Shown here piece after piece: positions 5,171 through 63,700 of a stretch of DNA of 64,000 bases. Both the position numbers and the translations under genes were made by a program. Where the stretch lies: contig OZ038457.1 in the NCBI GenBank assembly GCA_964036195.1, positions 16,829,147 to 16,893,146 on the forward strand, in the 5' to 3' direction. This DNA comes from Sphaerolaimus hirsutus (taxonomy: Eukaryota > Nematoda > Chromadorea > Monhysterida > Sphaerolaimidae). The notes below the pieces were generated by a model that was not told the origin of the DNA, searched no databases, and was given only the letters and a program-made list of their open reading frames with translations. Position 1 is the stretch's first letter. Every line of letters starts with the position of its first letter.

Positions 5171-7830
5171 CGACCGTCCATTCTTCGGAAACTTCAAAGG
5201 CGCCTCGACCTGCCTGCCGCCGTGCATGGCGTGCTGTTGCTGCGTGGGCTCGCCGCTGACGGCGAAGCGGCGCGACGCCGTGCTGGAGCGGGTGCCCGCG
5301 CGCACTCTGGGCAGCACGTTGCCGCCGCCGCTGTGAGCGATTGAGAGTAGTGAGGAGTATATATGGACATTTTTCATCCAGGACGGTTTACATGCTCACG
5401 GTTTTCATGTTGTTCTGTGTCACTTTACTAGCTAAGTGTGCCACTTTACTTGCTACTTACTCTAGTGTTACAGTTTTCATCCAAAGTGTGTCACTTTACT
5501 TACTTTCTATAAGTATGCCACTTTTCAAGCCAAAGTTGTGTGTTTTGTGTCAATTTACTTGCTAGGTTTGAATCTTTACATGCTAATCTATGTGGCATTT
5601 TTATTTGGCATGTCTGTGGCTTGTAAACCGTAATACTTTGGCATGTAAACTGCTACACGTTGGGATGAAAAGTGTCACATGAATTTGGCATGTAAAACTA
5701 TGTCTGGGGTTGAAAACCATATGTTTTACAAGTAAAACAGAGGATTTGAGATGAAAACCGTGAACATGTAAACAGTGAGGGATGAAATCTTGAGGATCAA
5801 GTGGGCGCTTCGGTAAAATCTACCATATCCCATCGGAATAAAATACCAAGAATACTGTTGCTTTTTCCCACGAGATTTTCTGGGTGAATTTCGTCTGACT
5901 TAATTCAACAGATCGCGTGCAGTTGGTATCGCGTGCAGTTCGACCAATTTATTTTTTTTATCAGTTGAAGTTTGTTCAATTTCGAAAACAATAGCACTGG
6001 CATTTTGTTGGGTGGGCATATATTGTGACACAAATATTTACCTGGCTCACTTTATACTGTCCTATGAAAGTGTAACGTCGGGTGAAATAGTTGGGTCACG
6101 GTCTAACCCAGCCCACTACATTCACCTTCTGCCAACTATCTCTATATGTGTGTATATATTGCTTTTTGAAGCATTTGTCCTCTAGATTGTTTCCCAGAAC
6201 AGTATCCATTATGTACTTGATACAAAACACCAGGAATTAGAAACGCGTTGTTGAGAGTAAATATCACGCTAAAGGCAGTTCCGAGCTATGTAAAGTGTAA
6301 AGTCAAGTAAGTGTCAAACGTCATGTAAAATGTCAAATAAAACGTTTAAAAAAATTATTTCTGAACTTTGCAAGACAATTGACACTTTGCCTGATAATTT
6401 GCATGACAGCTGGAAGATTTGTATGACATTTGTCATGGCATTTGACACTTGACTTTACGCTTTACATGGCTTGCGACTGGCACCAGGTGGCAGTCCCAAG
6501 CCCTGTAAAGTGTAAGCCCTGTAAAGTAAAGTGTCAAATGTAAAGTCAAATGCAAAGTAAACTGTCAATTGTCATGCAAAGTTCAGTAATATAATCTTTT
6601 CTTTTTTGTTTTGATTGACACTTTACTTTGCATTTGACTTTACATTTGACACTTTACTTTACACTTTACAGGGCTTGGGACTGCCCCCAGGCCTGCATAC
6701 AATCTACATGAATAAATATCCAAAAACCACTTTGAACAAGGGATCTACAGGGTGCGGCAATTTAGACCTACGCCGTAGATTTCGAATAACATGTCACTGG
6801 GTGGTCGGATTTTGGTCAACATTAACAACTAAATAGGAAAGGATCTCTGAAAATACAGCTGCGATAGCTCCACTCGTTCTTAAGTTATTCATGCAAACAC
6901 CAATAATTGTCGCTTTACTACCACCTTGCTTTACAACTAATTACGCAAGCGTCTGCCGATTTCCTTATCGATAAGGCGGATTAGTGGCGCGCGCACGCAT
7001 TTTGGCATGCCACTGCGAAAATAAAGATAAAAACAAACAGAAAAAAAACAATCCCAATCCCGATCCGGCTCCCGAAAAGTGGATCCCGCTTGAAACCTAT
7101 CACGGGGTGGTGGTAATGTAACAATAACGCGTTTGCATGAATAACTTGAGAACGAGGGGAGCTATCGCGGCCATATTTTCAGGGATCCTTTCATATTTAG
7201 TTGTTAATGTTGACCTAAAATTTGACGTAAATCCGACCACCCAGTGACAAGTTATTCGAAATGTTGGGCGGGCGTCTCAATTGCCGCACCCTGTACAACA
7301 TCAAACACACTCCAAGCTCACCCAGCAGGCGGCGCGTCGGGCTGGCCGCGCTGCGCGCCGCTGGTGGCCGGCTCGTCGCGCTGTCGCTGCTGCGGATGGC
7401 GGTCTGGGCGGCGATTGCGCGAACTTTCCGCCCGCTGCTGTTGCTGTAGGGAGAACACAGTCTGGTACTGGTCTAGCTGGGATCTGCAAGAAGGGGGGAA
7501 GTACTGGAATTGTGCCAAATGCATGAACCGGATATTGCTTTGGTGATGCTCAAAAAGTAATTAATTGCGAATCCGGCCAATTAAAGGTCAAAATTAGGTA
7601 ATCACCCAGACATGCTTTTTTCGGGCGGCCAAGTCGACTTAACGAGACAGACATTAACAGCGTGTAATTTAATCCACAAAACGTCGTGCCCAAAAACATA
7701 ACCACAACCCAACCACCCACCTAAGTTGCTCAATCTCCCTGTCCCTGAGCGTGAGCAGCTCGTGCAGCTGTCTGATCTCCACCTCCTTCTGGTGCAGCAC
7801 CGCCCTGAACTCGTGCAGTGCGGCGTTCAT
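5171..7830 (-). CDS. PRKG1: cGMP-dependent protein kinase, type I / foraging-like, N-terminal exons (partial)
   Basis: The first three coding exons of a PKG I-type kinase: exon 1 7721-7830, exon 2 7322-7483, exon 3 5171-5330, together 144 codons. Splice phases agree (2, 2, 0) and all borders are GT..AG. Exon 1 starts at ATG 7830 and encodes a heptad-patterned leucine-zipper segment rich in E, L and R, as in the PKG I dimerisation and docking domain. Exon 2 opens with SQLDQYQTVF, close to the family's QLDKFQSVFP. Exon 3 encodes an Arg/Ser-rich stretch (RVRAGTRSSTASRRFAVSGE) in the place of the autoinhibitory sequence whose family core is RAQGISAEP, then PLKFPKNGRS, which normally leads into the first cNMP domain. 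The cNMP and kinase domains are outside the window. A Gln/Arg-rich insert in exon 2 (residues 45-90) is lineage-specific. The family phosphorylates Ser/Thr targets in response to cGMP. Assignment rests on remembered family motifs, not on a search. Confidence 0.72.
5371..5789. repeat. Palindromic element (family L) in PKG intron 2
   Basis: Left TTTTCATCCAGGACGGTTTA and CATGCTCACGGTTTTCATG; right GATGAAAACCGTGAACATG and AAACAGTGAGGGATGAAAT. Interior GTGTCACTTTACTTGC repeats. Confidence 0.75.
6273..6483. mobile_element. Family B element abutting the next copy
   Basis: Left end GGCAGTTCCGAGCTATGTAA, right end TTGCGACTGGCAC followed by CAG, which is also the left flank of the copy at 6487. Interior AAAGTGTAAAGTCAAG and complement. 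Confidence 0.7.
6487..6687. mobile_element. Family B element, clear 3-bp duplication CAG
   Basis: Ends GTGGCAGTCCCAAGCCCTG and CAGGGCTTGGGACTGCCCC, flanked by CAG at 6484-6486 and 6688-6690. Interior AAAGTGTCAAATGTAAAGTC and its complement. Lies in PKG intron 2. Confidence 0.85.
6748..7293. mobile_element. Mariner-like non-autonomous element (family K) in PKG intron 2
   Basis: Ends CAGGGTGCGGCAATT and AATTGCCGCACCCTG, flanked by TA on both sides as for Tc1/mariner. Arms of over 150 bp pair (ATGTCACTGGGTGGTCGGAT against ATCCGACCACCCAGTGACAA). It ends 28 bp from the donor of PKG exon 2. Confidence 0.8.
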
Positions 7831-12204: not shown

Positions 12205-12655
<451 letters not shown>

Positions 12656-13006
12656 CCCAGCATCGGTTACAATCACTAAACGGTTACTCTTAATCGCTAT
12701 ACAGTTGAAGGCACTGATGGCGTCAAACGGTAATCACTTTTGAATAATTGCGCTCCCATCACAATTACCTAGCACCTTGGCAACAATAAATCACCATTTA
12801 AAATGGGCTATTTACAAGTAAACCTACAGGCTACAGGGGGTTCTAAATATAGCCAAAGTCGTCACAAGAATGCGGTTTTGCACCGGGAAGTTCAATTAGA
12901 GAAATAGTGAAAGTAAAAATGGAAAAAAAATTAAGTAAACGAGGATGTGAATACAGTATTCCTTCGAAACACCCTATTGAATAAACCACTTCCAAAAAAA
13001 ACCCAG

Positions 13007-13198
13007 GGGGCAATCCCAAGCCCTGTAAAGTGTAAAGTAAAGTGTCAAATGTAAAGTCAAATGCAAAGTAAAGTGTCAATCAAAACAAAAAAGAAAAAGT
13101 TTTATTACTGAAATTTGCATGACAATTGACACTTTACTTTGCATTTGACTTTACATTTAACACTTTACTTTACACTTTACAGGGCTTGGGATTGCCAC
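13007..13198. mobile_element. Family B element
   Basis: Ends GGGGCAATCCCAAGCCCTG and CAGGGCTTGGGATTGCCAC, flanked by CAG (13004-13006) and CTG (13199-13201). Confidence 0.8.
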
Positions 13199-13735
13199 CT
13201 GGTCTGAGCGAGCTGTGAAAAAAAAACTCCCCCCTCGAAATACCCCCCCCCCGTCTGGAATGATATACATAGGTGAACTTAACTGTCTGCGAAATAGATT
13301 TATCGGTTTTGGATATCATTGCAATCACGCAGACAGATGGGAAAAAATTCCAACACATGACAAAAAACAAACAAACACAAACAAACAGACACAAACAAAA
13401 ATGTGAATGGATAATGGATAACTGAAAGCTGGAAGTTCGTAAATATCAGCTAAATTCGAATAAGCCTAATCAAGCAACGCAAACGTGTATGCAAAACCTA
13501 TGTTTACCTAGTCAGAACGCAACACCGACTATACGTGACAAAGCATGATGTAAATGGAGAAAAAGCGGATGAAACGCAATCGTAGGCAACTGAAACGATA
13601 AAAAACTGACGCCTGCGCACTGAAGCATTCTCAAAGAGATGAGCATAATCTCCGGGAAAACGTTCGAATTTTGAGGCATTTTTTTAAAGACCCAAAGTTT
13701 CATTCTGGCAGCTGTGTGCGTCACTTGTGTGCAGG

Positions 13736-15576: not shown

Positions 15577-15942
15577 GATACGCACTGATCTGCCCGTTAC
15601 GCACATTTGCCCGTTTTTTTCACTTGACACTTTTTAAAGTGATTTTCAGATATGAGTGAAGTGAAAGACGCTGCGCAATGACATTAGTGAACTTTTTTTA
15701 CTTCACTCATATCTGAAAATCACTTGAAAATGTGTCAAGTGAAAAACAGTGAAAAATAGCATTTTTCACTGGTTTTTTTTCACCTGACACATTTTCAACT
15801 GATTTTCAGATATGAGTGAAGTGAAAAAAGTTCACTAATGTCATTGCGCAACTTTTTTCACTTTACTCATATCTGAAAATCACTTAAAAAAGTGTCAAGT
15901 AAAAAAACGGGCAAATATGCGTAACGGGCAGATGTGCGTATC
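15577..15942. repeat. Nested palindrome (family J)
   Basis: Outer ends TGATACGCACTGATCTGCCC and GGGCAGATGTGCGTATCA. The TTTTCAGATATGAGTGAAGTG block occurs four times in alternating orientation. Confidence 0.8.
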
Positions 15943-27130: not shown

Positions 27131-28531
27131 CAAATATTGCGGGCCATGCTCACTTTACAACTTTGACAGTTTACAAGTAGAGTAAACCTGACACTTTACA
27201 AGTAGATATATACAAGTTTACAAGTATAAATAACAAAGTGTACAAGTACATTTCAACTCCATTTTTGCGCTCACTTTACAAGTAAATATAACAAGTTTAC
27301 AAGTATAAATACCCAAGTTTACAAGTAGATTTCAACTGCATTTTCGCGCTCACTTTACAAGTAAATATATACAAGTTTACAAGTATATTTCAACTGCATT
27401 TTTGCGCTCAATTTACAAGTCCAATGGCCAAACTTTACAAGTACAAATATGCTAGTATTCTAGTATGCTAGTGATAGTATAAATATAAATCATTACAGAT
27501 ATATATATATGGACTCACCGACACATGGAATATCGCTGTATTAACAATTTCAAACCTACTTAAGTACATAAAAGAGCGCTTTTTCACGTTGCACCATGAG
27601 TGCAGTTTGTCATTCAAAATGGTAATTTTTTAAATTGTTTTATAATCTTTGTCTTCACGAAATTTCATGAAAGTGTAAGCAAAAAATCACGTTCTTTTGA
27701 GATATTACACTACATAAAAATCTGACATCAAATGCAAAAGTTACAATATTTTCTTTTTTCTCAGGAATGGAGTTGTTATTTCCAATCATGGATATTTCAC
27801 TTGTGACCAATATGTAAAAACCATACTTTGCATTGTGGCAACTTGGCAGTTCTCTTACTCACTTGATACCTATGAAACTTAATACTGTCTCTGACAAAAA
27901 AGAACACTTACTCACTTGATACCTTGGCTGACTGAGTTGACCACAAGCTTACTCAGTCAACTGTTTGCTCACCCAGCAGTTTTCCTGACTCACTTGATTA
28001 GTAGATTGAGTTGGCGATTTACTCAGTTGACAGTGGGTCTTTTTGAACAGACACTTGATGAAGTCTTTTTCCTGCATGCTTTTTTTGCATGCCACTTCAT
28101 CAAAGTCAGCCGGAATGACCACGCAGGCGCGAAGCAGATACACGTGCCAATCACATACAATAATGGATAATTGTGATTGGAAATTTTGTTTGATGATTTT
28201 AATATAATGTTTGCACAATGAGAGCAGGCAACACCTGTTGGCTATGGGACTTGTCATATAGTTGTAAAGTGCGCTTTTTACTTGTAAAGTTTGGTAGTTG
28301 GACCTGTAACGTGAGCGCAAAAATGCGGTTGAAATCTACTTGTAAACTTGGGGTTTTTTTACTTGTAAACTTGTATATAATTACTTGTAAAGTGAGCGTG
28401 AAAGGGGAGTTAAAATCTACTTGTAAACTTGGGTCTTATTACTTGTAAAGTTTCATATTATTACTTGTAAAGTTTCAGGTTTACTCTACTTGTAAACTGT
28501 CAAAGTTGTAAAGTGATGCAGGGTCAATATT
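27131..28531. mobile_element. 1.4-kb inverted-repeat element with subterminal repeats (family I)
   Basis: Arms about 300 bp: left CACTTTACAACTTTGACAGT, right ACTGTCAAAGTTGTAAAGTG. Inside each arm the unit CACTTTACAAGTA / TTTACAAGTAGATTTCAAC, with GCGCTCACTTTACAAGT, recurs several times. No transposase frame is visible in the middle. Confidence 0.75.
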
Positions 28532-30877: not shown

Positions 30878-33800
30878 TCAAGCGACAAGGCGTTCTAATT
30901 GTTCCTCACACGAGCCGGCCGCCAGCCTGTTGTAAGCCATTTCGGTGATGCCGTGGTAGTGCACAAATGCAGCTACCAGCACGCACATGTGGAATATCTG
31001 GTGAGACTGGAACTGCGAAAAGGGAAAAACTTAGCTGGCAACGTGCCCATGATACAGAAATAAATATCAGTGGAAAATGTAGGGTTCAAATGGGATTGAC
31101 TTTTCGGGATCGTGATAGGTATTGAGGTCACCAGATAGGGATTGATTTTCGAGTTTTCGGGATCGGGATCATCCCTGGGTACTGGTCGCGGGATCGGGAT
31201 TTCGGCCAAAGTTCTCGTATTGATGGTTTTTATTAAAAAAATTCACAAAAAAGCCTAAATACACACAGCTTTTCGGGATATGAAAATTTTCGGGATAGGG
31301 ACCGGGATCGGGACCGCTGAATCCCGGAAATTATCGGGATCCGGTATAGCTATCCCGTTTGAGCCCTAGGAAAGCGGCACACTGTGAAACCTACCCAAAT
31401 ATCACACTTCCCCGGAAAGAATCTCTCCGGCACCCTCCACGCATACAGCAGCGCGCCACCAATATACAGTGCGGCCATGAGCGCCATCCAATGGAAGGCC
31501 ACGTCGCGCACGAGCGACACCAACCCGTCGGTGATGATGTAGTGGATGCAGGGCACCACGCCGCTCAGACCCGTGCCGATGAACACGCCCGCGCGCAGCG
31601 GACGGAACTGCGGCGTGGCGAACCGGTCCCACAGCGAGACGACGATCGAGAAGGCGCCCTGGGTGGCAGTCCCGGACACTGTAAAATGCCCTGTGAGATG
31701 TCAAATGTCACGCAAAGTGTCAAAAGTCATGTAAAATGCCCTGCAAAATGGCAACCTGGTTGCCATTTTACAGGGCATTTTACATGACTTTCGACACTTT
31801 GCGTGACCTTTGACATTTTACAGGGCATTTTACAGTGTCTGGGAATGGCACCAGCACGCTGATCAGCACCGAGTAGACGATCTTGGGCTCGGTGCGACAG
31901 TAGAAGCCGTAGAACAGCCAGGGGATGAACGAGCCGACGATCATCAAAGAGATGCCCACGTAGTCGAGCTTGGAGAACAGTTTGCCTACCTGCGTGGGTG
32001 GCACGGAGGTATTAGGTTGGAGAATGTCAACTTAAGCGGCTATGAATCTGACAATACACATACATATGAAGGGTGTGCTTCTAAATGTACCGATCTACAA
32101 ATTTTTCAAATTTGAGTTAATACCATTTTTGGGGTCCCCATAAAAATGCGCTTCAAAAATATACATAATATGTGGGGGGTGCGAAATTCAATTTTGAGAT
32201 ATGGGGGGTCGAAAAAAGCAAAAAAATCGCAAAATACAGTTTTTGAAATTTTAAAAGTACCAATCTACAAGCTTTTTCAGCTTTTGTGTCTTTAAAAGTA
32301 CCGATCTACACACTTTTTTCAAAATTGTTCTTTTAAATGTACCGATCTGCACATTATTTTTTGTGCTTCTAAAAGTACCGATGTCAGATCGGTGTCCGGT
32401 TGCGCAAAAACTCATTTTGTGCTTTTTTATCATGGGTAAAAGTACCGATCTACAGCTTTCTGATTTTGTGCCTTAAAAAATACCGATCTACACGCTATTA
32501 CCAATTTGTTCCTTTAAAATGTATTGTACTACAAAAAATACGATTCACTAAATGTTATATAGCTAGTGTTATATGTATAAACAATGATTATACCCATGCA
32601 TGTGGATACCCAATAATATGGCCGAAATACCCATACCCAAAATTCCCATACCCAATATCTATGTATGGGTATTGCATGCTCCAAACTTTCAATCGCGATT
32701 ATCTCGAAATCGATTTTTTTGTAGATCGGTACTTCTAGAAGCACACCCTTCATATTTACGTTGTCGTTTTCGGCAAATTTTTTGGCTAAATACTACCCCC
32801 GACACCCATCTGCAGCGATTTTTAAGAAATTTTACAGCTCTTCTCACCAAAAATCACTAATCTTGATACAATTATATAGATTTTCACCTCCAAAATCACT
32901 AGTTCATGTGTCTAATAGCCTATTTTTAGCTATTTTAGTATGTACTATATGTAGGGTTCAAACGGGACCGCGGATTCGGCAAAACACGTTACATGGTTCG
33001 GCAAAACGTCGGGACTGGGGCGGTCCCGGTCCCGGTCCCGACACCCAAGTCCCGGTCCCGGTCCCGACAATTAAAAAAGTCAGTCCCGGTCCCCACCACT
33101 CAGTCACGGTCCCGGTCCGGACCACCCAGTCCCGGTCCCGGTCCCGGAATTTGATAGCGGTCCCGACAAGGGATGGTAAAAAACGTATTTTTCAATGACC
33201 TGGGTTTAAAGGATGTTTTTTTAATAAAATGGTTTTTTCAAAGGCTCCCAAATATAGTTACAATGTGTTCAACATATACACGTAAATATGTGAGACAAAT
33301 AGCAGTATCTTATGATGTCATATATCGTAAGAGAAGGCTTATACATTGACACTGTCATCAATTTGACAGTGATGTTACAGGGGTATGTGGGAGCACATTG
33401 GTTTGATATTATATACTACACTAGCATTCTTATTACACGGTAAGATGAAAAGTGCCAACCCTACTAGACCCAACCCAACAAACACCTCACTAACCTCATG
33501 CGAGTGGTTGCACACCGTATGGAACGCGGTGGACATGGCCAGGCACATGATGGCGCCGAGAAAGAACGAGGAGAAGACGATCTTCTCCTGCCACTGCACG
33601 TGGTGCTCCGGCCGCGACAGGAACCACACCGCCACGCCCATGAATGCCACGCAGCCTGTGAGGGGGGGGGGGTTATTTAGGTTACATGGCACTCGATATT
33701 AGGATACGATGATTATTTTGCCAACCAAAAAATGTGTTGCGGTTAGATTTGGAAAATGGGTGATTTTTAGAAAATGTAGTAAATTTTATCTCAGAAAATT

Positions 33801-36800
33801 TCTCCAATTAAAAAAATGCCAATTGCGGTCATCAACACTTTCGAAACTATGTGTCAACATTGCCCCTCATTTCAAGATTACATGTAAACCACAACCAACA
33901 AAGGAAAAAAAGTGGGCCCCGCTTATTTTCAAAATAACATTTTATTGCATTTCGACTTTGTATTGGTACACAGCTGACAATTGTAGCAAAAAAAATCATA
34001 AAAAGTAATTGCGCACAAAATTGATAAGATTTGGCAATGAAAACGTTCCTAGCACACTGGAAGATAACGGCACGCAAAGCAACTCATTGTGCCAATTTGC
34101 TATTGCCAACTATTCACATAATCTACTGTACTTCCTCGAAATACACCCTTGAAAAAAATACTACAGAGTGAGACATCACAACACTCTCATGTATTAGCCT
34201 TCCCGTATAATATTATATAAGCACTGTTCCATGCCGAACTTCACTTGAAGTCTAAACATTTGACAAAAGGCGATGTATGCAACAAGACACAAAAGTCAAC
34301 ACAAAAATGAATATTTTTGAGAGAAATCACCAATTATAAGGCTATCCCATGACTCCACAGCCATTCTATGGCTGTATTTATCATCGCCAAGTACTGGCAA
34401 TTGCCTGATATAACTGCATACGTTGACTCATAACTGTTTTTAGGATTTAAAAAAACGGTTTTATTATTTTTTAAACTTTTTTTTAATTTCCCTAGCTAGT
34501 ATAATTTTGCATCGCAACCAGTAGAATTTTGCGCAACACAACTCAGAACTTCACTTTACTTCAAACTAGAAAGAAGTTAAAACAGCCGTGCAAACTTCGA
34601 GAAAGAAAAAAAAACATTTTCAAAGTAAACACGAACCCCACCAACCCAAAAGATGCGTCCAAATATTGCCCGTCTCAGTGTGCAGCGCGAACACGGACCG
34701 CAGACAGGCGCCCATGTGGGGCACGGGCACCCTGTGACCCCCGTGCAGGAACTCGTTGTCCTTGAGCCAGTCCGGCAGCTCGTTGAAGTGCGTCACCCGC
34801 GTCGAGTACGCCCAGAACTGAGAGAAGGGGTGTAGTGTTTTGCTGTGTGGATGCTAGGCTCTAGTCCACTATGCGTTTGAAGCGAACATGACAGTATTCA
34901 CACTCATCGTTTTGTGAGTGGCTTCTGAAAGGGCTAGGGTTGGCCGATGTTTTTTAAAAAACGTTTTTTATTAAAAAACGTTTAAAAAAACAAAACATGA
35001 CGTCCGAAATGTTTTTTTTTTTAAAACATCGACCGAAATTTTTAGTACTAAGCACTAGGTATTTTGCAAAATTTTTGCGCGCAAGCGCGCAATTTCACAC
35101 ACAAAGTGACATTGGTGGTTGTTTTCATTGGTCTTGTGGCATTTTTAGTATCAAAGTATCCATTTATATATGCTACCATGGGTTAATAAGCCGTAATATG
35201 TCGGTGTAGTATATAATATTGAGGTAATGTGCTTCCATGTACCTCCACAGTGTGTAACTTCCCTCCCAAAGTAACAACCTCCTTTTATAACCTTGTTTCA
35301 TCACTATTCCGTGCCAAGCTTTACCTGAAGTCACGAACATTCGACTATAAGGCGATATACGAACGTATCGACAAAAAAATGGATATTTTTGACACAAATC
35401 ACCACTTATAATGCTATCCCATGGCTCAACAGCCATTATATGGTCATATATAAACTTCACAGAGTATTGCCACTGTCTGATATACCTATATATGTTGACA
35501 CAAGGTCATATCTGGGAGCTTTTAAAAAAAACGTTTTTTATTTAAAAAAAACGTGTTTTTTTATTAAAAAAACATCGAGTTAAAAAAAAACGTTTTTTTT
35601 TCCAACCCTAGAAAGGGCTCCCAATTAAGCGCTTTAGGTGTCATTTGGTGGTGTAAATTAAAATGAGAAATGATTACATGGTGCATGCACGTTAATAGAT
35701 GCAATTTAAATACTAGGTGTTACTACATAAACTACGTTCTGAGTGAAGCACTGCAGTAAATATGTATTTAGCTATGGCTACTGAATGTGCACAATAAAAA
35801 TACAGCTTATCCAGACAGCAATAAATAATGCCCCAAAACCAAGAAAGTTTGAAGTCACGACAGGGTGGAACATTATATGCGCGCATAGCGATTTATTAGT
35901 TTTGAGAGGGTGACTTAGCACGCGACCGATACCTTGTCAGCCCAAGAGCCATACCGCTGGTCATCCTGCACCAACAGTGGAATAGCGGCAAAAACGACAA
36001 TGCAGTATACCGAGTGGAGCATTCCTTGCGCAGAATCCTACCGTAATTTAATGAATAAAATCTTGTTATAAATTTCGTAATTGATTATTCCGTAGTGAAA
36101 GCGAAGTATTGCGATGAAAACAACTGTGTAATTTTTGTTTCATCGTTCAGATGGGTTATGGTAGTTTTCCACGCAAAGTGTGCTGTCCGCCGACCAACAA
36201 ACGCCGAGTACAACAAACGCACCACACAACAATACGACACAACACGCATCACTTCACCTAGTGTCCAGCACAACACCAAAGCACAGTTGCCCACGTACCC
36301 GTCGAAACATGTGCCCGGCGTGCTCCTTGGCCGAGTCGAACGCGGGGAAGCACACGTTGATGTCGTCCTCCATCTCGACGGTGAGCTCGTCGTCGAGGAG
36401 CGCGTCGGGCAGCGGGACCACCGGCGGCACGAGCACGTTGTTCTCGTCGCCCAGCTGCTCGTGGAAGGCGGTAGAGTCGGGCGAATGGGGCGACAGCGGC
36501 AGGCGGCGGCGACGCCTGTGAATGCGCAACATTGTTGTGAAAAAAATGCGCAAAAATATAAGGCTTATTTATTTTATGTTTCAAGATTTTTTTGATAATT
36601 TCATTTAACCCTTCAAGGAGCTTTTGAGATTATATTTAAAAATATTTTCAAAAAATTACCAATTTTTGAAAGCTAATCTCTTTAATGGCACAGATCTCAC
36701 GATATAGAACTAGCCAAAGGCTCAGTAGAGTTTGAATTTCAGATTGCAGCTTTTGAGCTCTTTGGGGCGGACAATGTCAAAAAATCCGGAAAATCGGGAA

Positions 36801-38269: not shown

Positions 38270-41200
38270 ATGAGTCACATCGAGATGGAGCTGAGTTTGA
38301 GGGGACTGTTTCAGGATTTCAACGCAACGTGAGTTCATTGGGTGAACTGGCCCAAAGGTTATGCAATCGCTTGTCGAATACTACCTTATCTGTTTTTTTG
38401 GTGTTATTCTCATGGCGGCGTCGCTTGGCTCATTCTTTATAGCGTACGCACTACGGTATCAAGTACGGTGTGTGCTTTTACATTTGCTCATTGGGTCACA
38501 CACTACTTGACATCAAAATTACTTCATTAATTACTTGATTACGATTAATTACTTAATTTATCACTCTCCGTCCCAACCTCGCAGCAAGGCGTTCGTGTAC
38601 GGCGCGCTGTTGGTGTTTACGTGCGCGTTCGCCCTCCGCCTGGACAACGTGTACAGCGCCCCTTACGTGGTCGTGTTCACGCCGCTGTGGCTGTGGAAAA
38701 TCGCCGCGCTGGCGGGCGCCCTGGTGGGATGCGTGGCGCACTGGAAGCGACCGCCTGCTAGGTAGTGTTTTCGCTGGGGTGGGAGGGGGCCGCTGGCTGA
38801 AGACGATGGATGAAAAAAAAACAACATTTTTTTAAATAATGCATTTTTTTCCAAGAACATCGTTTTGTTGGCTGTTTTTTTTTCAGAACTGCTAAAAAAT
38901 GGCGAAGACAGAATAAGCCACTAAATTATATGAGACAAGTCGTGATATTTTGGGCTATTGTGTGCGGAATATTGTAAAATTTGTCAATAAAAATTGTGCA
39001 ATAAATTTATACAACAAAAATTTTGTCAATACAAATTGATATTTTATGTTGTGCAAAAATGATGAACATGTAAGTGTCATAAAGTTGACAAAAGTAAGTG
39101 TGTAAAAATCCAGCGCTATACCAAAAATCGAAATTTTGACAAAAAACATACCATTAATCTGAGCACAGGAGCGATGTAGCTGGTGAATTGGAATACCGGA
39201 CCATGGTTTTGTGCGCGCTGCAACACTTGCTTCTATTTGTCTTTGAAATTCTGGCATGTTACAAACTTGACTCTGGCGACCCTAATTTGAAGTGGATCCT
39301 TGTATTTGTACCCTTGGTTTTCGAAAGCATCATATCTATTGTAATCTGCATTTGGGCTGTGAGGCAGGAACGCGGTTTCGAGGTTTGTGGCGTCATTTTT
39401 TCTTTGTACACAAAAATATCATGAACTAGATTTCTAAATTTTTCAGTTTGAAATATTCTTCTGCGTCAACGGGCTTCAATTCGTCTTTCTGGCCCTAAAA
39501 CTTGACAATGTTGTCGCCTGGAATTGGGCTGTAAGTCATTCAATTTGATCACCAATAAAGCCTCTACTTATTTTCAAACCATAAATTTACACCCAGGTTA
39601 TTTTCATTCCACTTTGGATCGTGATCTGCCTGAGTCTGATCGGCGTGCTCTATGCAATCATCTTGGCCGTGTTGTTGATTAGGAGCTTCGAGCTGTTGCC
39701 GGAGCGGCGCAGGCAGCACATCTGGTCGGCCATTGGGTACACGCTGCTGGTTGTGCCACTGCTAGTGTTTTTGGTGCGTTTTATTTGTTCTGTCAGTGAG
39801 AGTCTTCCAGACAGGGGTCTTCAAAGTGGGGAGGGAGATCACCCAGCTTTTGCCGGTTCTCGCCTTCAAAATAACTAGTTCATCTGCTTTATTAACACCT
39901 ATTTCAGCTGGGTTTTTTTATCACCTACTCTTAGCGATTTCTCTACACTTCCTTCTACACTTTGAAAAAGCCTTCATATTTTTTGAACCCCCAACCTCCC
40001 TCCAAAAAAATTTATCCCTCCATGGGAGCGATTTGCTATCTACCCAACCCCGGCGGGTCAAAATCCCTGCTTGCACAAACAGCCTCACTGCAAATCAACT
40101 TGCACAGGTGCTTCTGACGGGCAAGCTGGACGGCGCGGGAGCGGGCGACGACGCGGCGGCGGCGCTGCCCCTGTCGGTGGTGTGCACGCCGCTCTACGTG
40201 TCGCTCGCCTGTCTCATGCTCATGGCGTGCGGCACTCGCGGCGGCAACACTTGTCGGTTTTGGGTGCCTGTGTTTCGTGTTGGGGGTGGCGGTCAAGGAC
40301 GTATCCAGGGGGGGGCGGGGGGGGGGGGGCTGCAGCCCCCCCCCCTTCCCGGGGTGAGACCTAAAAAGTCCCGGAAAATGCAACTTTTACTATATATTTT
40401 TTGGTGTTTCTTAAAAATTTTGCGCGCAAGCGCGCAATTTCTTCCCCATACATAGTATTTTCAACGGATCGGTCCATGTAAACCAATATGCTTGGAAATG
40501 AATTTATTTCTGCAACTTTCGCTGCATATGTATGCATATTTACATACATATAAAGCGGTTCCTGGCGCTGGCGCCAACGCCAATAGCGCCATGGCGTGGC
40601 GCCTTTGTATGGCGCCACCGCCAAAACGCCTTTCCATCCCTATATAGGGAAAATTTTAGGGGGGGGGGGCTGAGCCCCCCCCCCCCGTACGCCGGGTTCC
40701 GTAAACAAGCAGCCCCCCCCCGCTCAAAAATCCTGGATACGTCCCTGGTGGCGGTAGAGGTTTTTTGTTTTAAAAATCGTAGCTAGGGTTGGCAAGCGAT
40801 TTTTAAACCGATTTTTTAAATTGATTTTTTAAATCGCAACCCCTGGTCCAATTAAAAAATAATAGATTTTTTTAATTAATCGAGGTCGTTAAAAAAATCT
40901 TTTTTTCCAACTCTAGTCGAAGCCGTTGTTTTTAAAATGTGCCACTTCATATATTTGCATTTATTTTATCTCTACACACCATTTTTGGGGAACTTCTAAT
41001 AATCGCCCTTTGACGTTTGATTAAAATTCCATCCCTATTTGGTACTATTTCAACTAGTTGCTAAACGCTCAGGGTGGTTCGGCATGCGAACGGACGTGTG
41101 CACCTTCCTGTTGGAGTCTTGTCCATGCTTGCAAGAGTATGGTAACGTGAGCTACAAATTTGGCCGCTCTGCCAATCGACGGAATTCACCCAGTGACGCC

Positions 41201-41742
41201 GTTCAGGTGCTAAATTTGTTCCTTGTAGTTATGATTAGGGTTCAGACGGGATCGAGATCGGTTTTGTCAAAATTTCGGGAACGGGGTCAAAATTAGAGTC
41301 TCATATGGGGATCGGTATATTGAACTAAGTTCTGTTATTAAGGTTTTCTCTAATTTTTCACAAAGAGCCTAAAAACACACATGGATGTTGGATATTGCCG
41401 TTCGCAGTTCTCGGTACAAAAAAAGTCATTTGGGAAATTTGTCAGAATTTTTCCGGGTACACAATTTGGGAATTTTTTTTATTGATATCGTGTTTGGGAT
41501 TTGGAAATTCGCCCGATCGGGTTTGGCTTATCAAATTTTCGGGATCGTGCAGGGGTGTCATTAAATGTGACCAAATAATTCGTCATCAAATCTCCACGGC
41601 GTCACAGGAGGTTCAAGTTGGCGACCAGCCAGACGCTTTTGAAATGGCCAGTAGCAGAAGGACTGTGGCAAACAGTCGCAGTGCCTCCAAGGACGTATTT
41701 AGAACTGTTTGCCCCGTGGTCACCATTGAGGCACCTGACTGA
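38270..41742 (+). CDS. TMEM185: Transmembrane protein 185 (TMEM185/FAM11 family)
   Basis: Eight exons: 38285-38328 (or from ATG 38270), 38585-38761, 39169-39382, 39447-39530, 39597-39773, 40108-40252, 41073-41206, 41608-41742. All phases agree, giving 369 residues from the ATG at 38285; the 38270 ATG adds five. I prefer 38285 because the family starts close to MNLRGLFQDFNPS and this reads MELSLRGLFQDFNAT. Three internal repeats of the family pattern are seen: LRLDNVYSAPYVVVFTPLWL, LKLDNVVAWNWAVIFIPLWI and KLDGAGAG...VVCTPLYVSL, each followed by hydrophobic helices. FGMRTDVCTFLLE and LQEYGNVSY match the conserved C-terminal region. The C-terminal 45 residues are polar and Ser/Thr-rich. It is a multi-pass membrane protein, in mammals found on endomembranes and in dendrites; its biochemical role is not known. 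Introns 5 and 6 hold family C, D and F elements. Confidence 0.92.
39813..40075. repeat. Family C element in TMEM185 intron 5
   Basis: AGGGGTCTTCAAAGTGGGGA at the left; GAGCGATTTGCTATCTACCC and GGGTCAAAATCCCTGC at the right. Confidence 0.6.
40294..40747. mobile_element. Family D element (hAT-like, non-autonomous) in TMEM185 intron 6
   Basis: Ends CAAGGACGTATCCAGG and CCTGGATACGTCCCTG. An exact 8-bp duplication GTGGCGGT lies on both sides (40286-40293 and 40748-40755). Contains runs of G and C that pair, GCGCGCAAGCGCGC, and a cluster of GGCGCCATGGCG motifs. Confidence 0.85.
40784..40915. mobile_element. Short family F relative in TMEM185 intron 6
   Basis: Ends TAGGGTTGGCAAGCGATTTT and TTTTTTTCCAACTCTA; flanking 8-mers ATCGTAGC and GTCGAAGC match at six of eight. 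Confidence 0.7.
41236..41555. mobile_element. Family E element in TMEM185 intron 7, truncated
   Basis: Begins TAGGGTTCAGACGGGATC; ends near TTTTCGGGATCGTGCAGGGG without a proper right terminus. Confidence 0.6.
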
Positions 41743-43262
41743 TTTGTAGCCATTTTGATACGTTTGTCTTTGTACTTATGTGTATAATGTAGTCAATGAG
41801 TTTTTTGCGATATTGTATTTATTGCTGATTTTTCCCTCGTGTACACGGTTTTTTAAGTCATGGCTTAACAGTGCTGGATAGCAAGGACGTATGCGGGGGG
41901 GGTGGGGGGGCTGCAGCCCCTCCCCCCTTCCCGGGTTGATACCTAAAAAGTCCCGGAAAATGCAACTTTTCCTATAGATTTTTCGATGTTTCTGAAAAAT
42001 TTTGCGCACAAGCGCGCAATTTCTACCCCATGCATTGTATTTGCAGCAGATCGGTCCCTCTAAACAAATATCCTTGGAAATGAACACATTTTTGCAATTT
42101 TCGCTGTATATGTATGCATATTTACATAAAATATAAGGCGATTACTGGCGCCAACGCCAATAGCGCCATGGCGTGGCGCCTTTGTTTGGCGCCAGCGCCA
42201 AAACGCCTTTCCGTCCCTATATAGGGAAAAAATTTAGGGGGGGGGGCTGAGCCCCCCCCCCCGTTCGCCGGCTCCCGTAAACAAGCAGCCCCCCCCCCGC
42301 TCAAAAATCCTGGATACGTCCCTGCTGGAAAGATTTGAGTCATGGTATAGTGACGTTTTTTGCGTAAATACTTTTTTAGATCTCGAATTTTTTTGTATAA
42401 ATGCATATTTAAATTTTCATTTACAACTATTTAAAGCGAATGTGCGGCAATTCCAGCCAAACCATTTTCACAGTCGTCGCACATCTTGACAGGTAATTTA
42501 TTTATGCTAGAAAATCAGTTTGCTGAAAAAATGTACCGCGTCCGCGACACGTAAAGGTAAATTCTGCGAATGCAATCCCTGCGCCAGAAGCTTATACCAA
42601 AGTATAGTTCATTTTTCATAAATAGGTAGCTACATTCTGCTAGTCACAAAAAATGCTACTTACAAGTTTATGTTGTCACCGTTGTATTATTTATTTTTAT
42701 CTTCTCGATTGTCTGTGAGCTTGCTGAGATGTGCACATAAATTCTTACCATGCAATTGTTGTTAAATTGAACAGTTACACGTACCGTATTTCCTTGATTA
42801 ACTCCCACCTTATAACTCTTCCGTGCGAAACAAGCGCCAGGTGGTTAAATATACTCCGCTTTTAGGAATGAAAAAGGGAACTTTTTGTTGGCCTGGACCC
42901 CCCCCCCCCCAAAAAAAAAAAAAATATGTGTCGGGGCCGGGGGTTTCTGAGGAAATGAGGTACTATTTTTCAGAAATGTATGTATGTCAGTTTCTTGATT
43001 GTTGTAAACTAGAAGATTATACGATAATAGGAACATAAAAGTAGCTACTATTCAAGTGTCATTCATTCTCGATTCGTATGATTAATAAACTTAATATTAA
43101 CTGATTTTTTGCATTCAATGGCGCCATTCTGGTGGACTGCACTGCCCACCTGCATTCGCTTGCAGAGTATTTTTGTCCAGTTCATTCCTGATTGTCCCCT
43201 CACTAATATCACTTGCTTACAGTTGGTTGTTCCACTGGAAATTCGGAATTCCTTCTTTCGTG
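41743..43262. other. TMEM185 to TMA7 intergenic
   Basis: Contains the family D element at 41882-42324 and a family A end fragment near 42784 (TACCGTATTTCCTTGATTAA). The TMA7 promoter should be just left of 43263; nothing specific is recognisable. Confidence 0.55.
41882..42324. mobile_element. Family D element (hAT-like)
   Basis: Ends CAAGGACGTATGCGGG and CCTGGATACGTCCCTG; flanking 8-mers CTGGATAG and CTGGAAAG differ at one base. Same interior as the copy at 40294. Confidence 0.85.
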
Positions 43263-44754: not shown

Positions 44755-45048
44755 CTGCTACTGGTGATATCGACAAAATGGGTGCCTGTTCTGGACATTT
44801 CCAATGTAACTTGATCTTCGCTCGAATATATTATCAATGATAAAAAATTTCAATTCTCGTCTGGAATGTCGCTTTCATTTACGTAGCGTTTGATGTCGAT
44901 TACTTTAAACAAATCGTGATGTGAAATTCGATCGCTAATTGAATGTTGAGTATCAAGTGCGGATCCATGTGTAAATTGACATACTTCGCATGTGTAAATG
45001 AATTTGGGTGGATTAATCATTTGAAAGAGTTTCCTAGATTCCTTTAGC

Positions 45049-45481
45049 CAGGGACGTACGCAGGATTTTTGAGCGGGGGGGGCGGATTGTTTACGGAGCC
45101 CGGCGAACGGGGGGGGCGGCGCCCCCCCCCCCCTAAAATTTGGCCCTATAGTAAAGGAATGGAGCCATGGCGCTGGCGCCATTTGTAGGCGCCAGCACCA
45201 TGGCAGTATTGGCGTTGGCGCTGGCGCCAACGTACACTCTATAGGTACCGATTTAGACCTATATAGGACTAAGACATATGTCGGACACTTTTATGATGCT
45301 TTTCAGGCTCCTGAAAATACATTAAACAATGGGGTGAGGATTTGCGCGCTTGCGCGCAAAAAATTTTGAAAGTGCCTACAAAATCACTTTAGAAAAGTGC
45401 CATTCCTGGCAAATTTTTATGTCCGGCCCGGGAACGGGGGGGGCGGCCGCCCCCCCCGCCCCCCCCCTGCGTACGTCCTTG
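45049..45481. mobile_element. Family D element (hAT-like), opposite orientation
   Basis: Ends CAGGGACGTACGCAGG and CTGCGTACGTCCTTG; exact 8-bp duplication CCTTTAGC on both sides. GCGCGCTTGCGCGC and GGCGCC motifs inside. Confidence 0.85.
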
Positions 45482-46248: not shown

Positions 46249-49200
46249 TCACAAACTGGTTTCATGAAGCAAAAATCCTGCGCCATCGCATTGCAATATC
46301 CTTCTTTGGGCCAGTAAAGTGGTGTGGCTGTCGCACTGGTTTGGCCCACCGCCAGTTGACCGATATTGCGAGTGTCTTCTGTGAGTTCGCGCTGGCAACT
46401 GCCTGTTGTCGCCGTTCTGCTGCAAGCTCAGTCTGTGCTGCTTGTGCTTGCCGGTGTTTTCGGCTATGCTTACTCGCTTCCCAACTCGGTCGATTTTCGT
46501 TGTTCTGAGATGCAAAATGCCTCTACTGCGATGTTTCGGTGACTAATTACGTGATCTCTTTCATTCGCTCATGCTGGACACCGAATTGTGTCGACAAGTC
46601 CATCAATTGCCCTTTAAGGAGATTTATCAGGGATGGGAACAAAAAATGTCGATTCAAGTGTAAAAAGTTTATAACTTGATTCCCCTCCCAAAACATTTCT
46701 GCTCATGTCCAAATGTGATCTATGGACACCTCATTTTTCAAATATCCATATGTTGAGAGCAGGAGCAGAAAATTTTAACTTTATTATCAACATTTGGAAC
46801 TTAACGGCACTTTACTTAGGCATTAGCGAGTCCTATTGGACACAGTCCACAGGTTGTGAACTGTAGTGGAACTTAAAATGCGAAAATCGCATTTGGTGGA
46901 CTTGTCGGCTTTCAGAATGAGACGCTTCAAATGTTTCAGCCCCTCCTGCACTTACTTGGTTCCATCCGCTCTCGCCGCGCTTCCGCTGGGGCTAGTAAAC
47001 ACCGAGGGGTTGGCGCCGGTGTTGCTCTGGCCGGTGCCCTGCTCGTCGGTCTGGCCGCACCAGTACGGCTTGGTGGCGAACAGCACGACCGTGAGCCACA
47101 GGAAGAGGCAGCCCATGCCCAGCCAGTACTTGTCCGACTCGCTGCGGCGCGCGCCTGCGGTGACCAGGTCGCTAGCGAACTCTACGTACATTGTGTACTG
47201 CGGCGTCGGAGAGCGGCCGATTGGAGTTGATGGTGGGTATTTACGTTTTCTCTGAAATACGCGTAAAACCGCGTACTGGGTGAATATTAATGGGTACAAT
47301 ACTCTAATTGTGCCAGTACCCATATGTACGCGTACAATTGAATGAGTACCTACTGGATACTTCTGAGTATTTCTGAAAATTCTAGGGATGCCGTTATGCC
47401 TGCATTACAATTACAATTGATAATTACAGTATTTTTCTAAGAATGCAGGCATATTTAGAGAAAAAACATGTTTGCACTTTCTTCAAAAAAATTTTGGTCG
47501 TCGTTTACATCGTCGACTGTTTCGTATCGTTTCAAAAAACGTTCCGTTGAGATTTAAAAGTTCTACCCAATTTCATACCAATGATACATAAAATACCCAG
47601 AAAACTACCGTATTTCCTCGAAATACCCCCGTCTCGAAATACGCCCCTCAAAATGGCCACTAGAATTTTTTAGCCCCCCCCCCCCCTCGAAATACCCCCC
47701 AAAAAAAGATAGAGTGTAAACTGGGCAGACAGATCGCCCTACAATGAATGATACCATATTTTGATGAATACGGTCACATAAAAAACTCCACCAAATTCAC
47801 CCAAAGTAGAAGCGATGTGATAAATATGATTAGAAAAATCGTATGTTTGTTCTTTTATTCAGATGGGATATGGTAGATTTCATTGTGAGGTGTAATGTCG
47901 CTGGAGTATAAAGGGAACGTCAATGACAATAGATGCGGTTTGTGATCCGGACAATGCAAAATACACGTTAAAGCAATGACTTGTTACGTTAGAACAGGGT
48001 TTATGCCATCTAAAATACATACTTATCTTATCTACCATCTACCTACATATATAAGTCTATAGACTCTTATACATGGTGCTTATTGTTGTATTTTTCTACG
48101 TCTGCGTACGTTACAAACGACAAATTAGTACTGGAAGTTAAAAAAATTTCTGGCAAAATAATAAGCCCCCCCCCCCCCTGTTTAACTCCCACACAAAATT
48201 CTCACTCTGAAACAATCACCCCCCGGGGGGGGATTCCGAGAAATTACGGTACACACTTTTTTGCAAGTACCAAGCAAACTTCTCATTTTACACTTCGACG
48301 AAGAAAGGTATCAAAAATACTCGATTTTATGCTCTCATGACGAAAAAAATACCATACGCAATTTACCCAGGTACTGGGTAAAAAGTATTCACCCGGGTAT
48401 TCTTTTGTACATGGGTAAAAATGAAAGTATTTACCCATACGCGTACTTTCGAAAAAGTTCGGTACTCAAACAACCTGCAGCCGACATTGGTTTGTTTGTA
48501 GTATTCTGCGCTCACTGACTTCTAGGAAACTCTGCGGTCACGTGATCGAGCACGTGCATGCCGTCTATGAACAGCGCGCTGTTGTTGACGACACTGGCCG
48601 TGGATAGCTCCATCATAGCCCTCCGTTCGGCGCCCAGGGGGCACTCCCAGACCCTGTAAAATGTAAAATGTCATGCAAAGTGTCAAAAGTCACGGAAAAT
48701 GCCCTGCAAAATGGCAACCGAGTTGCCATTTTGCAGGGCATTTTCCATGACTTTTGACACTTTGCATGACATTTTACATTTTACATAACATTTTACAAGG
48801 TCTGGGAGTGGCACCAGTGCCCGTATTTCCTGCGCCATGCGGCCGGGTCGAATTAGAATATAATACGCCTGTGTTTACTGTCGGCAATTGAGCTTTCAAT
48901 CAACTGGCCATGGTAAATTGCCCAGCTGCAATTTCACATCGCGACGTTTTCCGTATCGTCGAGAATCAATTTAGTTAGTGTTGGCCGGATGTTGCATTAT
49001 TATTTTGCAACGTGGCCGAGGTTATTAGGTTTTTACACTGCGATAAAGTTGTGATACATTTTAGTGTCTCATTGTAGTGTAAGTAGTGTTTCAAAGTGAA
49101 GACTAGGGTTCGAATGGGATGGACTTTTCGGAATCGGGATTGGTTTTTTGAGATTTCGGGATTGGGGTTTCGGAACCGGGATCGGAATTGGGATTGCCGT

Positions 49201-60744: not shown

Positions 60745-63700
60745 CTAATCCTCTCTGGTGTAGAACAACAAGTAAGCCTGGGCGGCGAGCACCTCCTCCA
60801 CGGAACACAGACGCAAACGGGCGTCGTTGCAGTGCAACCAGAAGCCGCCCAGCGAGTGCCAGCAGTAGGATGTGTAGTGACCTGTGATCAAGGATCGACG
60901 ATTTTTGACTGTTTTTCTTTATGAAAGCGGACTTTTTAAGGACTTGACACACACTATCAAAATGTCAAGTGTAGTGTCAACTCCATTTTGGTTAATCGTG
61001 TGTTTCAACTTTCCTTTGTGGAAATGCATAGTTAATTTTATACGTGACACCTAATTTCCATCGTTTCTGTTGAGTGATGCTTAGAATTTTTTTATACCTA
61101 GATGCTTGGAATGTTGTTTAGTTGACATTCCGTTGACAATTATTTGCGATGTCAACTAGTGTGTGTGTGGGCCCTAAGGAGCAAAGATTTAAACAAAACC
61201 CAATCCTAACCAGCAGTGAATCCGCGGCCATGATGCATGATCACGCCGACCAACTTATAACTGGTGCCGCCGTCGATATCGTCCAAACAAAACGGACGCA
61301 CGTCCAGCGTCTCGTCAAACTGCACATGCACGCTGATCTTCTCACGGGCGCCGCGCGTCCGCCCCGACCACCGGAAACGCTTCATGTGCAATCGGAGTAT
61401 CTTTGGCAGCTTGCCAAGCAGCATGCGTTTCTTTGCTCGACTGAAGCGCTTGTCGCCAGCCGACTTTTGTAGTTGGACGGCACTACTGATGTTGCTGCCG
61501 CTCGCACTGGCCGATGAAAGCCTGTGAATTGGGTGCCCGTGTTATGTCTGCAATCCTGCGGTATCACACTGCAGAGTCGTTCAAAGTACTGTACCTTTTG
61601 AAAGTAAAAGTGAATGTTAAGCAAGGACGTAGCCAGGGGGGGGGGCGGGGGGGGCGGCCGCCCCCCCCCTTCCCGGGCCGGACCAAAAAATGTGCCAGAA
61701 ATGGCACTTTCAGACGACGATTTTGTCGACAGTTTGAAAATTTTTTGCGCGCAAGCGCGCAGTCTCCCTTCCCAACATAACTTTTTGGCTGACCAGTCTC
61801 TGCGGCCTAAAAGCCAGTGAAAATGAACTCAATTTCTGTCCATGTCGCTGTATATGCCTGTAAAATACAGACGTATACTGCTGTTTTGGCGCCAATGCCA
61901 ACGCCAGTAGCGCCATGGCGTGGCGCCTACGAATGGCGCCAGCGCCATGGCGCCATTCCCCTACAACAGGGGTAAAATTTTAGGGGGGGGGGCGCCGCCC
62001 CCCCGTTCGCCGGGCTCCGTATACAATCCGCCCCCCCCGCTCAAAAATCCTGGCTACGTCCCTGATGTTAAGTATTTGATTTTTACTCACCGCTGAGTAC
62101 AGAAAACGTAAAGTAAAAAGTTCTTACTTTTACACTGCGTAAAGGGTGAGTAAACGTAAAAACAAGCGTTTTTACAGTTAAACCTAAAAGTGAATTTTTT
62201 GCTTCGATTTTGTACCCAGAAAAACACGAAAGTAAGTAAAAGTGAAAGTGAGAGTCGTCGCTTTCACTACACATCGCAACTTTGATAATTTTCGCCCCCA
62301 TTTCAATTAGTTTGAGTCGTTTTTGCTTTTTATGCACCCCATAAATTTTTCGTTTTACGTTTTCTCTACTTGCGTACTTTCGTAAAGTACGCGTAAGGTA
62401 CAGGTATTTTTTTGCGGGAAACGTAAAATTATTGCTCCAGTACTCAAGTACACGTATTTTTCGAGTAAACGCAAATACGTTTCAACAACCATGTCACCCC
62501 GTGTTCTCGCAAACCTGCTACTTGAACGTCTCTGCACTTTGATTGGCCCAGTTTCACATTCTGACTTTTCGGTGTAGTTGCATCTTTCACAGAAATACAC
62601 CTGCCCAAGGTCCTCGATTGATGTGAAGGACCGCAGCATTTCTGTCACATGGCAACATTCTAATGCCAGATTCAGACTCGTCAGGCGACAGTCTTGATGC
62701 CTGCAAACGGATTTATCTAACATTACTTTTTGTACAGTAAAGGGAGTGTCCTGATGCCAATCACAGACCCTGTAAAGTGTAAAATAAAGTGTCAAATGTC
62801 GTGTCAAATGTCATGCAAAGTGTCAACTGTCACGGCAAATCTAAAGCAAATTGTCGATTGTCATGCTAAGTTCTGTAAAAAATCTTATATATTTGTTTTG
62901 ATTGACTTTTTACATGACATTTGACACTTTTCCTCACACTTTACAGGTCTGGGATGCGGGGGGCTCCAAACTTTAAATGTCCTACAAATTTGTCAAATAT
63001 CACGCAAAATGTCAGAAGTTCAGTAAGAAATCTTCTTTTTTATTTTAATTGACATTTACATGACATTCACACGCTACAGAGTGCAGTATTACTCCAAAAT
63101 GTAACATCGAATCACACCTCTGCGGGAACTCCAAACTCAAATCCGCGAACGGCTCAACAGTCTCCGAATTTCTGCCGCACTCGACACAATTAACTCTGGA
63201 CACGATGGCGCCGTTGAACAGTCGCTGGATCATGTCGCTGACCGCGGGCGACCTGTGCAGCTGCTGTTCCGAGCTGCGGTAGCGCGCGCTGTGCCGACCC
63301 GAGGGGCTCAATGCAGAACGGGGGTCGGTATCTTCTAAGCTCGACTGCTCGTCCGCCAGCTTGTCCAGTAGTTCACTGTCAATGGAGAGAGGATGATGGA
63401 GTCAATGATGGAGAAAACACACCTGAAACATATATACTCAGTGGCAGGAATGGGGGGGGTTGTGGGGGGGGGGTCACCGCCCCCCCCCCAAACCGCCCAG
63501 CTATATATCTATCACGGGCGCACATTTTTTGGCTACTTTCCTCTGAATATATTTTCATCTTCAAAATTGCTAACTTTATTGCCTATTTTCAGCTAAATAC
63601 TTTTTGTAATTTATGTGTGTTTATATACCTACCTATTTTCAGTTATTTTCAAGTTTTCAGCAATTTTTTGCCCTCCTGTCTTCTACACCTTGAAAAAGCC

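Follow-up and report, generated by a model that had tools for sequence, protein, structure and literature searches.

The adiponectin receptor gene and its surroundings

The window, i.e. the whole 64-kb stretch of DNA that was analysed (GC content 40.5%), carries on its minus strand an adiponectin receptor (AdipoR) gene, of which six coding exon pieces were recognised, from about position 36532 down to 30878. The reading frame is open in all six pieces. Beyond the two borders that are the subject of this report, five were placed, all outside the two exons lying furthest upstream, and each is GT or AG. The relevant part of the gene is laid out as follows.

33495..33655, minus strand: AdipoR exon (GCVAFMG...NHSHE)
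31852..31989, minus strand: AdipoR exon upstream of the 193-nt intron (VGKLFSK...ISVL)
31659..31851, minus strand: AdipoR intron, 193 nt, GT-AG, phase 0, the sole gapless in-frame GT-AG solution
31395..31658, minus strand: AdipoR exon downstream of the 193-nt intron (GAFSIVV...KCDIW)
30878..31012, minus strand: last AdipoR coding exon (FQSHQIF...ERLVA, stop)

Translated together, the last three exons align to human AdipoR2, a receptor of solved structure, with an E-value of 2.3e-66. A quick tree was computed from an alignment of 121 rows, namely the window's receptor and the best 120 of 976 matches. The closest partner in this tree is an environmental protein, P0002 (SH-aLRT 80), and the two join 13 further rows to form a 15-row set with a support of 96. 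These 13 rows comprise 11 named nematodes, all chromadorean, one further protein and one row labelled as a contaminant; the receptors of Trichinella and Romanomermis fall outside the set, and the window's own branch is long. The host is likely to be a nematode or an animal close to nematodes. A search of viral contigs with the receptor as query confirmed no relative.

Several other features were observed in the window. A TMEM185-like gene lies at 38557-39878 (Pfam Tmemb_185A); two JGI proteins cover a quarter of its product at identities of 92% and 82%, which makes it probable that sequence data exist for a close relative of the host. Gly/Pro-rich open frames recur at 40036-42430, 44850-45290 and 61382-61806 and look, judged by eye, like copies of a dispersed repeat; a CTAT microsatellite of 42 units (100% matches) occupies 12267-12435. 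Inverted repeats at 32058-32761, within an AdipoR intron, and at 27150-28516 each apparently represent another foldback family. A strong foldback with a 160-bp tandem repeat is found at 15614-15906 (84% self-complementarity in a sampled window at 15651) and is not a match to the family profile described below.

Predicted splicing of the 193-nt intron

A previous reading made from the sequence only had placed an intron at 31659-31851, and these coordinates proved correct, the gene being on the minus strand so that the interval runs from 31851 to 31659. It had been numbered intron 6, but the six recognised coding exon pieces make it number four of five. Splicing at these borders leaves the junction in frame (...YSVLISVL^GAFSIVVSLWDRFATP...), and the frame crosses it without gap, as had been claimed, both when compared to human AdipoR2 and when compared to the 120 other rows of the alignment in 20 junction columns. 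The leucine codon upstream of the junction corresponds to Leu in 121 of 121 rows, and the residue after it is Gly in 118 of them (in both cases the window's receptor plus the best 120 of 976 matches). Unspliced translation meets a stop after 23 codons of intron sequence.

The further claim that splicing must be exact was overstated. When 17 donors were paired with 9 acceptors, the frame remained open in 10 GT-AG pairs; only one of these, 31851-31659, neither adds nor removes residues at the exon junction. From this comparison we infer strongly, if short of proof, that splicing takes place exactly at 31851/31659. Another solution would be to use other borders; the same acceptor combined with a GTAAAA donor at 31833, for example, is in frame and adds VPFPDT. 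GTAAAA is closer than the GTGCCA at 31851 to the usual donor consensus, from which GTGCCA departs past the GT. But such borders are very improbable, because the 20 junction columns are gapless in the 121 rows (the window and the best 120 of 976 matches) and because two prolines would enter a segment that aligns gaplessly to the solved receptor. An RNA gene was also considered for the interval and rejected, there being no Rfam match at the gathering score and no tRNA.

The intron consists of a foldback element and a target triplet

Nearly all of the intron is one palindromic element, a foldback MITE recognised by its arms, its fold and its match to a family profile. Its parts are the following.

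31662..31851, minus strand: foldback MITE, 190 bp, with two arms meeting near 31757
31841..31851, minus strand: terminal inverted repeat supplying the 5' splice site (GTGCCATTCCC)
31662..31673, minus strand: opposite terminal inverted repeat, adjoining the 3' splice site (GGGACTGCCACC)
31659..31661, minus strand: intron-side target triplet CAG, which provides the AG of the 3' splice site
31852..31854, minus strand: exon-side target triplet CTG, which is the conserved Leu codon and the last codon of the upstream exon

The two arms (31662-31756 and 31758-31852) are separated by a single base and show 92% complementarity over 95 nt. The DNA fold has an energy of -96.9 kcal/mol, as compared to a mean of -24.6 for shuffled sequences (z = -21.4, none of 200 shuffles being as good), and the RNA fold of the coding strand with its flanks gives a z of -21.8; in self-complementarity the intron ranks first among 1277 sampled 193-nt windows. 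The shuffled folds and this rank rule out a chance palindrome. The very stable predicted hairpin has both splice sites at its base. It had been proposed that the intron is a foldback from its first base to its last; this holds for the 190 bp of 31662-31851, whereas the last three bases, CAG, are the target-site triplet. On the coding strand the order is thus ...GTG CTG, the element, then CAG GGC GCC..., so that 190 of the 193 nt belong to the element, the remainder is the target triplet and the ends of the element coincide with both ends of the intron.

A family of related elements in the window

BLAST and a profile search (profile E < 1e-6) detected relatives of this element at some 15 sites across the 64 kb: 6274, 6486, 10244, 13006, 17961, 31662, 37249, 45628, 45855, 48637, 50382, 53864, 60308, 62754 and 62975. 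The AdipoR copy matches the profile on both strands, with E-values of 1.7e-50 and 5.8e-48, the profile having been trained on 10 of its 15 reported places with this copy included. The family pattern gave no match in viral and prokaryote contigs.

Copy ends were placed by hand at 12 of the 15 places, the copies being hand-picked. Among these 12, a CWG triplet flanks both ends in five, one end in four and neither end in three; CWG makes up 2.7% of the triplets in the window. Because of the hand placement and the picking, a product f^10 is no fair p-value. The CWG target site duplication expected of a NuwaI MITE is found, the halves being identical in three of the five both-end copies (plus-strand pairs: 6486 CAG/CAG, 10244 CAG/CAG, 13006 CAG/CTG, 31662 CTG/CAG, 48637 CAG/CAG). 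The terminal repeats of these five copies are of 11 bp, approximately GKGGCARTCCC, apart from one 12-bp end at 31662 (31662..31673), which exceeds by one base the ends of the other four copies. Four of the five begin with GGG at one end and with GTG at the other. The copy at 13006-13199 is palindromic and flanked by CAG and CTG, a mismatch as in AdipoR, and no gene was recognised around it. At 6274-6687 two family copies adjoin, with a single CAG triplet common to both.

Three sites bear on how the family behaves with respect to genes:

6487..6687, plus strand: family copy with ready-made intron ends (CAG^GTGGCAG...TGCCCCCAG^), in no recognised gene
48638..48814, minus strand: family copy flanked by CTG on either side, without an AG at the triplet, inside a GC-rich open frame that it interrupts (MAQEIRAL^GAERRAMMELST)
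63117-62701: what seems an ordinary intron in a gene for a ubiquitin protease, with two family copies lying away from its splice sites

At the second of these, GC content by codon position after the junction is 0.59/0.44/0.72, which is similar to that of the AdipoR exon (0.60/0.47/0.84), and the shortest in-frame GT-AG splice among those listed adds three residues. The open frame had no match to Pfam families or to PDB, and a protein search gave none among 29 candidates. A SEC20-like SNARE had been suspected but found no support from Pfam (0 families), PDB (0), the protein search or a tblastn with human letters. This copy could be an exonic insertion that never received its acceptor, in which case exonic insertions need not be spliced.

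The protease gene, presumably USP44-like, has a Pfam UCH match in a downstream exon; the borders of the intron (GTGTGA/TTTGCAG) were placed by eye with USP44 as a guide. The nearer of its two family copies is about 50 bases from the acceptor, and here the family looks as if it had merely entered an existing intron. The same might be supposed for AdipoR, i.e. that the position already had an older intron, which the element then filled or displaced, since the protease gene indicates that the family does enter introns. This is hardly probable at all, however, because no residual intron sequence is left on either side of the AdipoR element, whereas even the nearer protease copy keeps its distance from the acceptor. 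For the same reason, and in contrast to the protease intron, an ordinary intron with an inner insertion was rejected. No exon borders were recognised at the remaining family places, the window being annotated in part.

Origin of the intron

We think it quite probable, from sequence evidence, that a nonautonomous transposon with a CWG target inserted into a CTG codon of AdipoR and became the 193-nt spliceosomal intron. In this scenario an almost fully palindromic, NuwaI/Harbinger-like element would have inserted, presumably at a recent date, into a leucine codon within an exon and duplicated the CTG target triplet. The terminal repeat starts with GT, which would have become the 5' splice site; the second copy of the triplet, which now reads CAG, would serve as 3' splice site, and removal of the element with one triplet would restore the original reading frame exactly. 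As Leu is found in all 121 rows (the window and the best 120 of 976 matches), the target was most likely CTG, and the intron-side CAG probably arose from it by a T to A change. That this copy created the intron, as had been asserted, is supported in part: insertion is the best reading, because the intron holds only the element and the target triplet and because CWG flanks recur in the family. Several observations speak against it, namely that the donor departs from the usual consensus past its GT, that both splice sites are at the base of a very stable hairpin, that the CTG and CAG triplets differ, the duplication thus being strictly imperfect, and that one terminal repeat of the AdipoR copy has an extra base.

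A different explanation would be that the insertion is a recent exonic one that is not spliced, or only poorly, so that the assembly contains a disrupted or polymorphic allele. The donor, which beyond its GT is far from the consensus, the confinement of both splice sites in a hairpin and the copy at 48638-48814, which splits another open frame without an acceptor at its triplet, are all compatible with this. On the other hand, the AG at the AdipoR triplet is just the dinucleotide that splicing requires, and a plain CTG duplication would not yield it. Moreover, the two arms of the AdipoR copy differ at 11 alignment columns, and four to six of the differences look private to one arm when two sister copies are compared, yet all recognised exon pieces are open. 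If these private differences arose after insertion, the gene has kept an open frame throughout that time, a point in favour of splicing; the insertion may then have been sitting in place for some time. They may instead have been inherited from the source copy. Altogether we regard a disrupted or polymorphic allele as improbable.

Returning to a spliced insertion, the change from CTG to CAG need not be due to selection for splicing only, because the same mismatch occurs, with the triplets in reverse order, at 13006, where no gene was seen. One possibility is templated copying within the hairpin: the mismatched triplets at 31662 and at 13006 are complementary to each other, as such copying predicts. 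This evidence consists of two copies, one of them not clean, and hairpin-templated correction was rejected as the sure cause, the extra base at the AdipoR end being unlike a clean copy of the other arm.

One may speculate further that a CWG-targeting transposon makes introns by its very design, its palindrome helping to make the splice site, and that the family would represent a Harbinger-type introner in a nematode-like animal. On one strand the duplicated triplet would read CAG and so provide a 3' splice site, and one end would start with GT, a 5' splice site, so that about a quarter of exonic insertions would be born spliceable, given even chances for orientation and triplet. Insertions with CTG would be rescued when the T:T mismatch at the base of the hairpin is copied to A:T, which would write an AG. 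We consider this extended proposal rather unlikely.

The designation as introner, proposed from the sequence alone, stands as far as an element-only intron with matching ends is concerned; in the published sense of a family generating many introns it is a candidate designation, there being one clean case. Among the approximately 15 family places in 64 kb there are one clean intron, one possible second and two copies inside the protease intron. A single clean element-only intron points to an introner-like birth, not yet to a proven introner family. There are few clear examples of the birth of an intron in animals, and in this one no base of the intron is left unaccounted for by the element and the target triplet, and the 3' splice site comes from the family's own target preference. 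If this genome holds copies at other exon junctions, the early stages of intron gain, possibly including unfinished ones such as 48638-48814, could be observed and tested in this animal.

Comparison with known transposons and introners

Among known transposons, a close counterpart is NuwaI, of the PHIS (PIF/Harbinger-ISL2EU-Spy) group, which has CWG duplications and short repeats usually starting with GGG, and whose hosts, in the sections concerned, are fishes, a beetle, a crustacean, a mollusc and an anthozoan, with no nematode among them (PMC4482050). The window family resembles it in its CWG target duplications, short terminal repeats and animal host, but its copies are palindromes of about 190 bp without coding capacity, the triplet halves sometimes differ, one repeat end starts with GTG and no transposase was seen (PMC4482050). 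We would place the family, on the basis of its ends and targets, among elements of a NuwaI/Harbinger-like kind, the transposase class being a putative one.

Introners have been surveyed by Gozashti et al. in 2022, who reported 27,563 introns in 175 genomes, alike to near both borders; according to the passages on animals and land plants, they occur there in two groups only, both animals, with copepods named (PMC9860276). Like these, the AdipoR element is nonautonomous, has inverted repeats and has ends that are the ends of the intron; unlike them, it is a single clean case with no set of similar introns, and its target is a CWG triplet (PMC9860276). In the introners of Chrysochromulina, too, the splice sites are of two origins, one lying in the element and one in the target duplication; as described in a figure legend, they have a 4-bp target site duplication, the element carries the 5' site and there are no terminal inverted repeats (Fig. 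2C legend, PMC9860276). Those of Amoebophrya share with the AdipoR intron the inverted repeats at the intron ends, the direct repeats at the borders (3-5 nt) and a predicted hairpin that places the exon ends side by side (PMC7789003). They are described as non-canonical dinoflagellate introns with inverted repeats of 8-20 nt, whereas the AdipoR intron is GT-AG and palindromic over its whole length (PMC7789003). The copepod Eurytemora affinis is likewise an animal with apparently recently acquired, idiosyncratic introns, but its donors are GA/GG after an obligate exon AG, compared to GT after exon CTG in AdipoR, and no element family is described for these introns in the sections concerned (PMC5714493). 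A paper on intron gain in nematodes mentions introners, in the parts available, as background only (PMC9169325), and among the literature matches listed (titles and starts of abstracts, with few subscription papers) there were no CWG, Harbinger or nematode introners. The mechanism that we propose is already known from these systems; what would be new is the CWG target and the likely host, a nematode or an animal close to nematodes.
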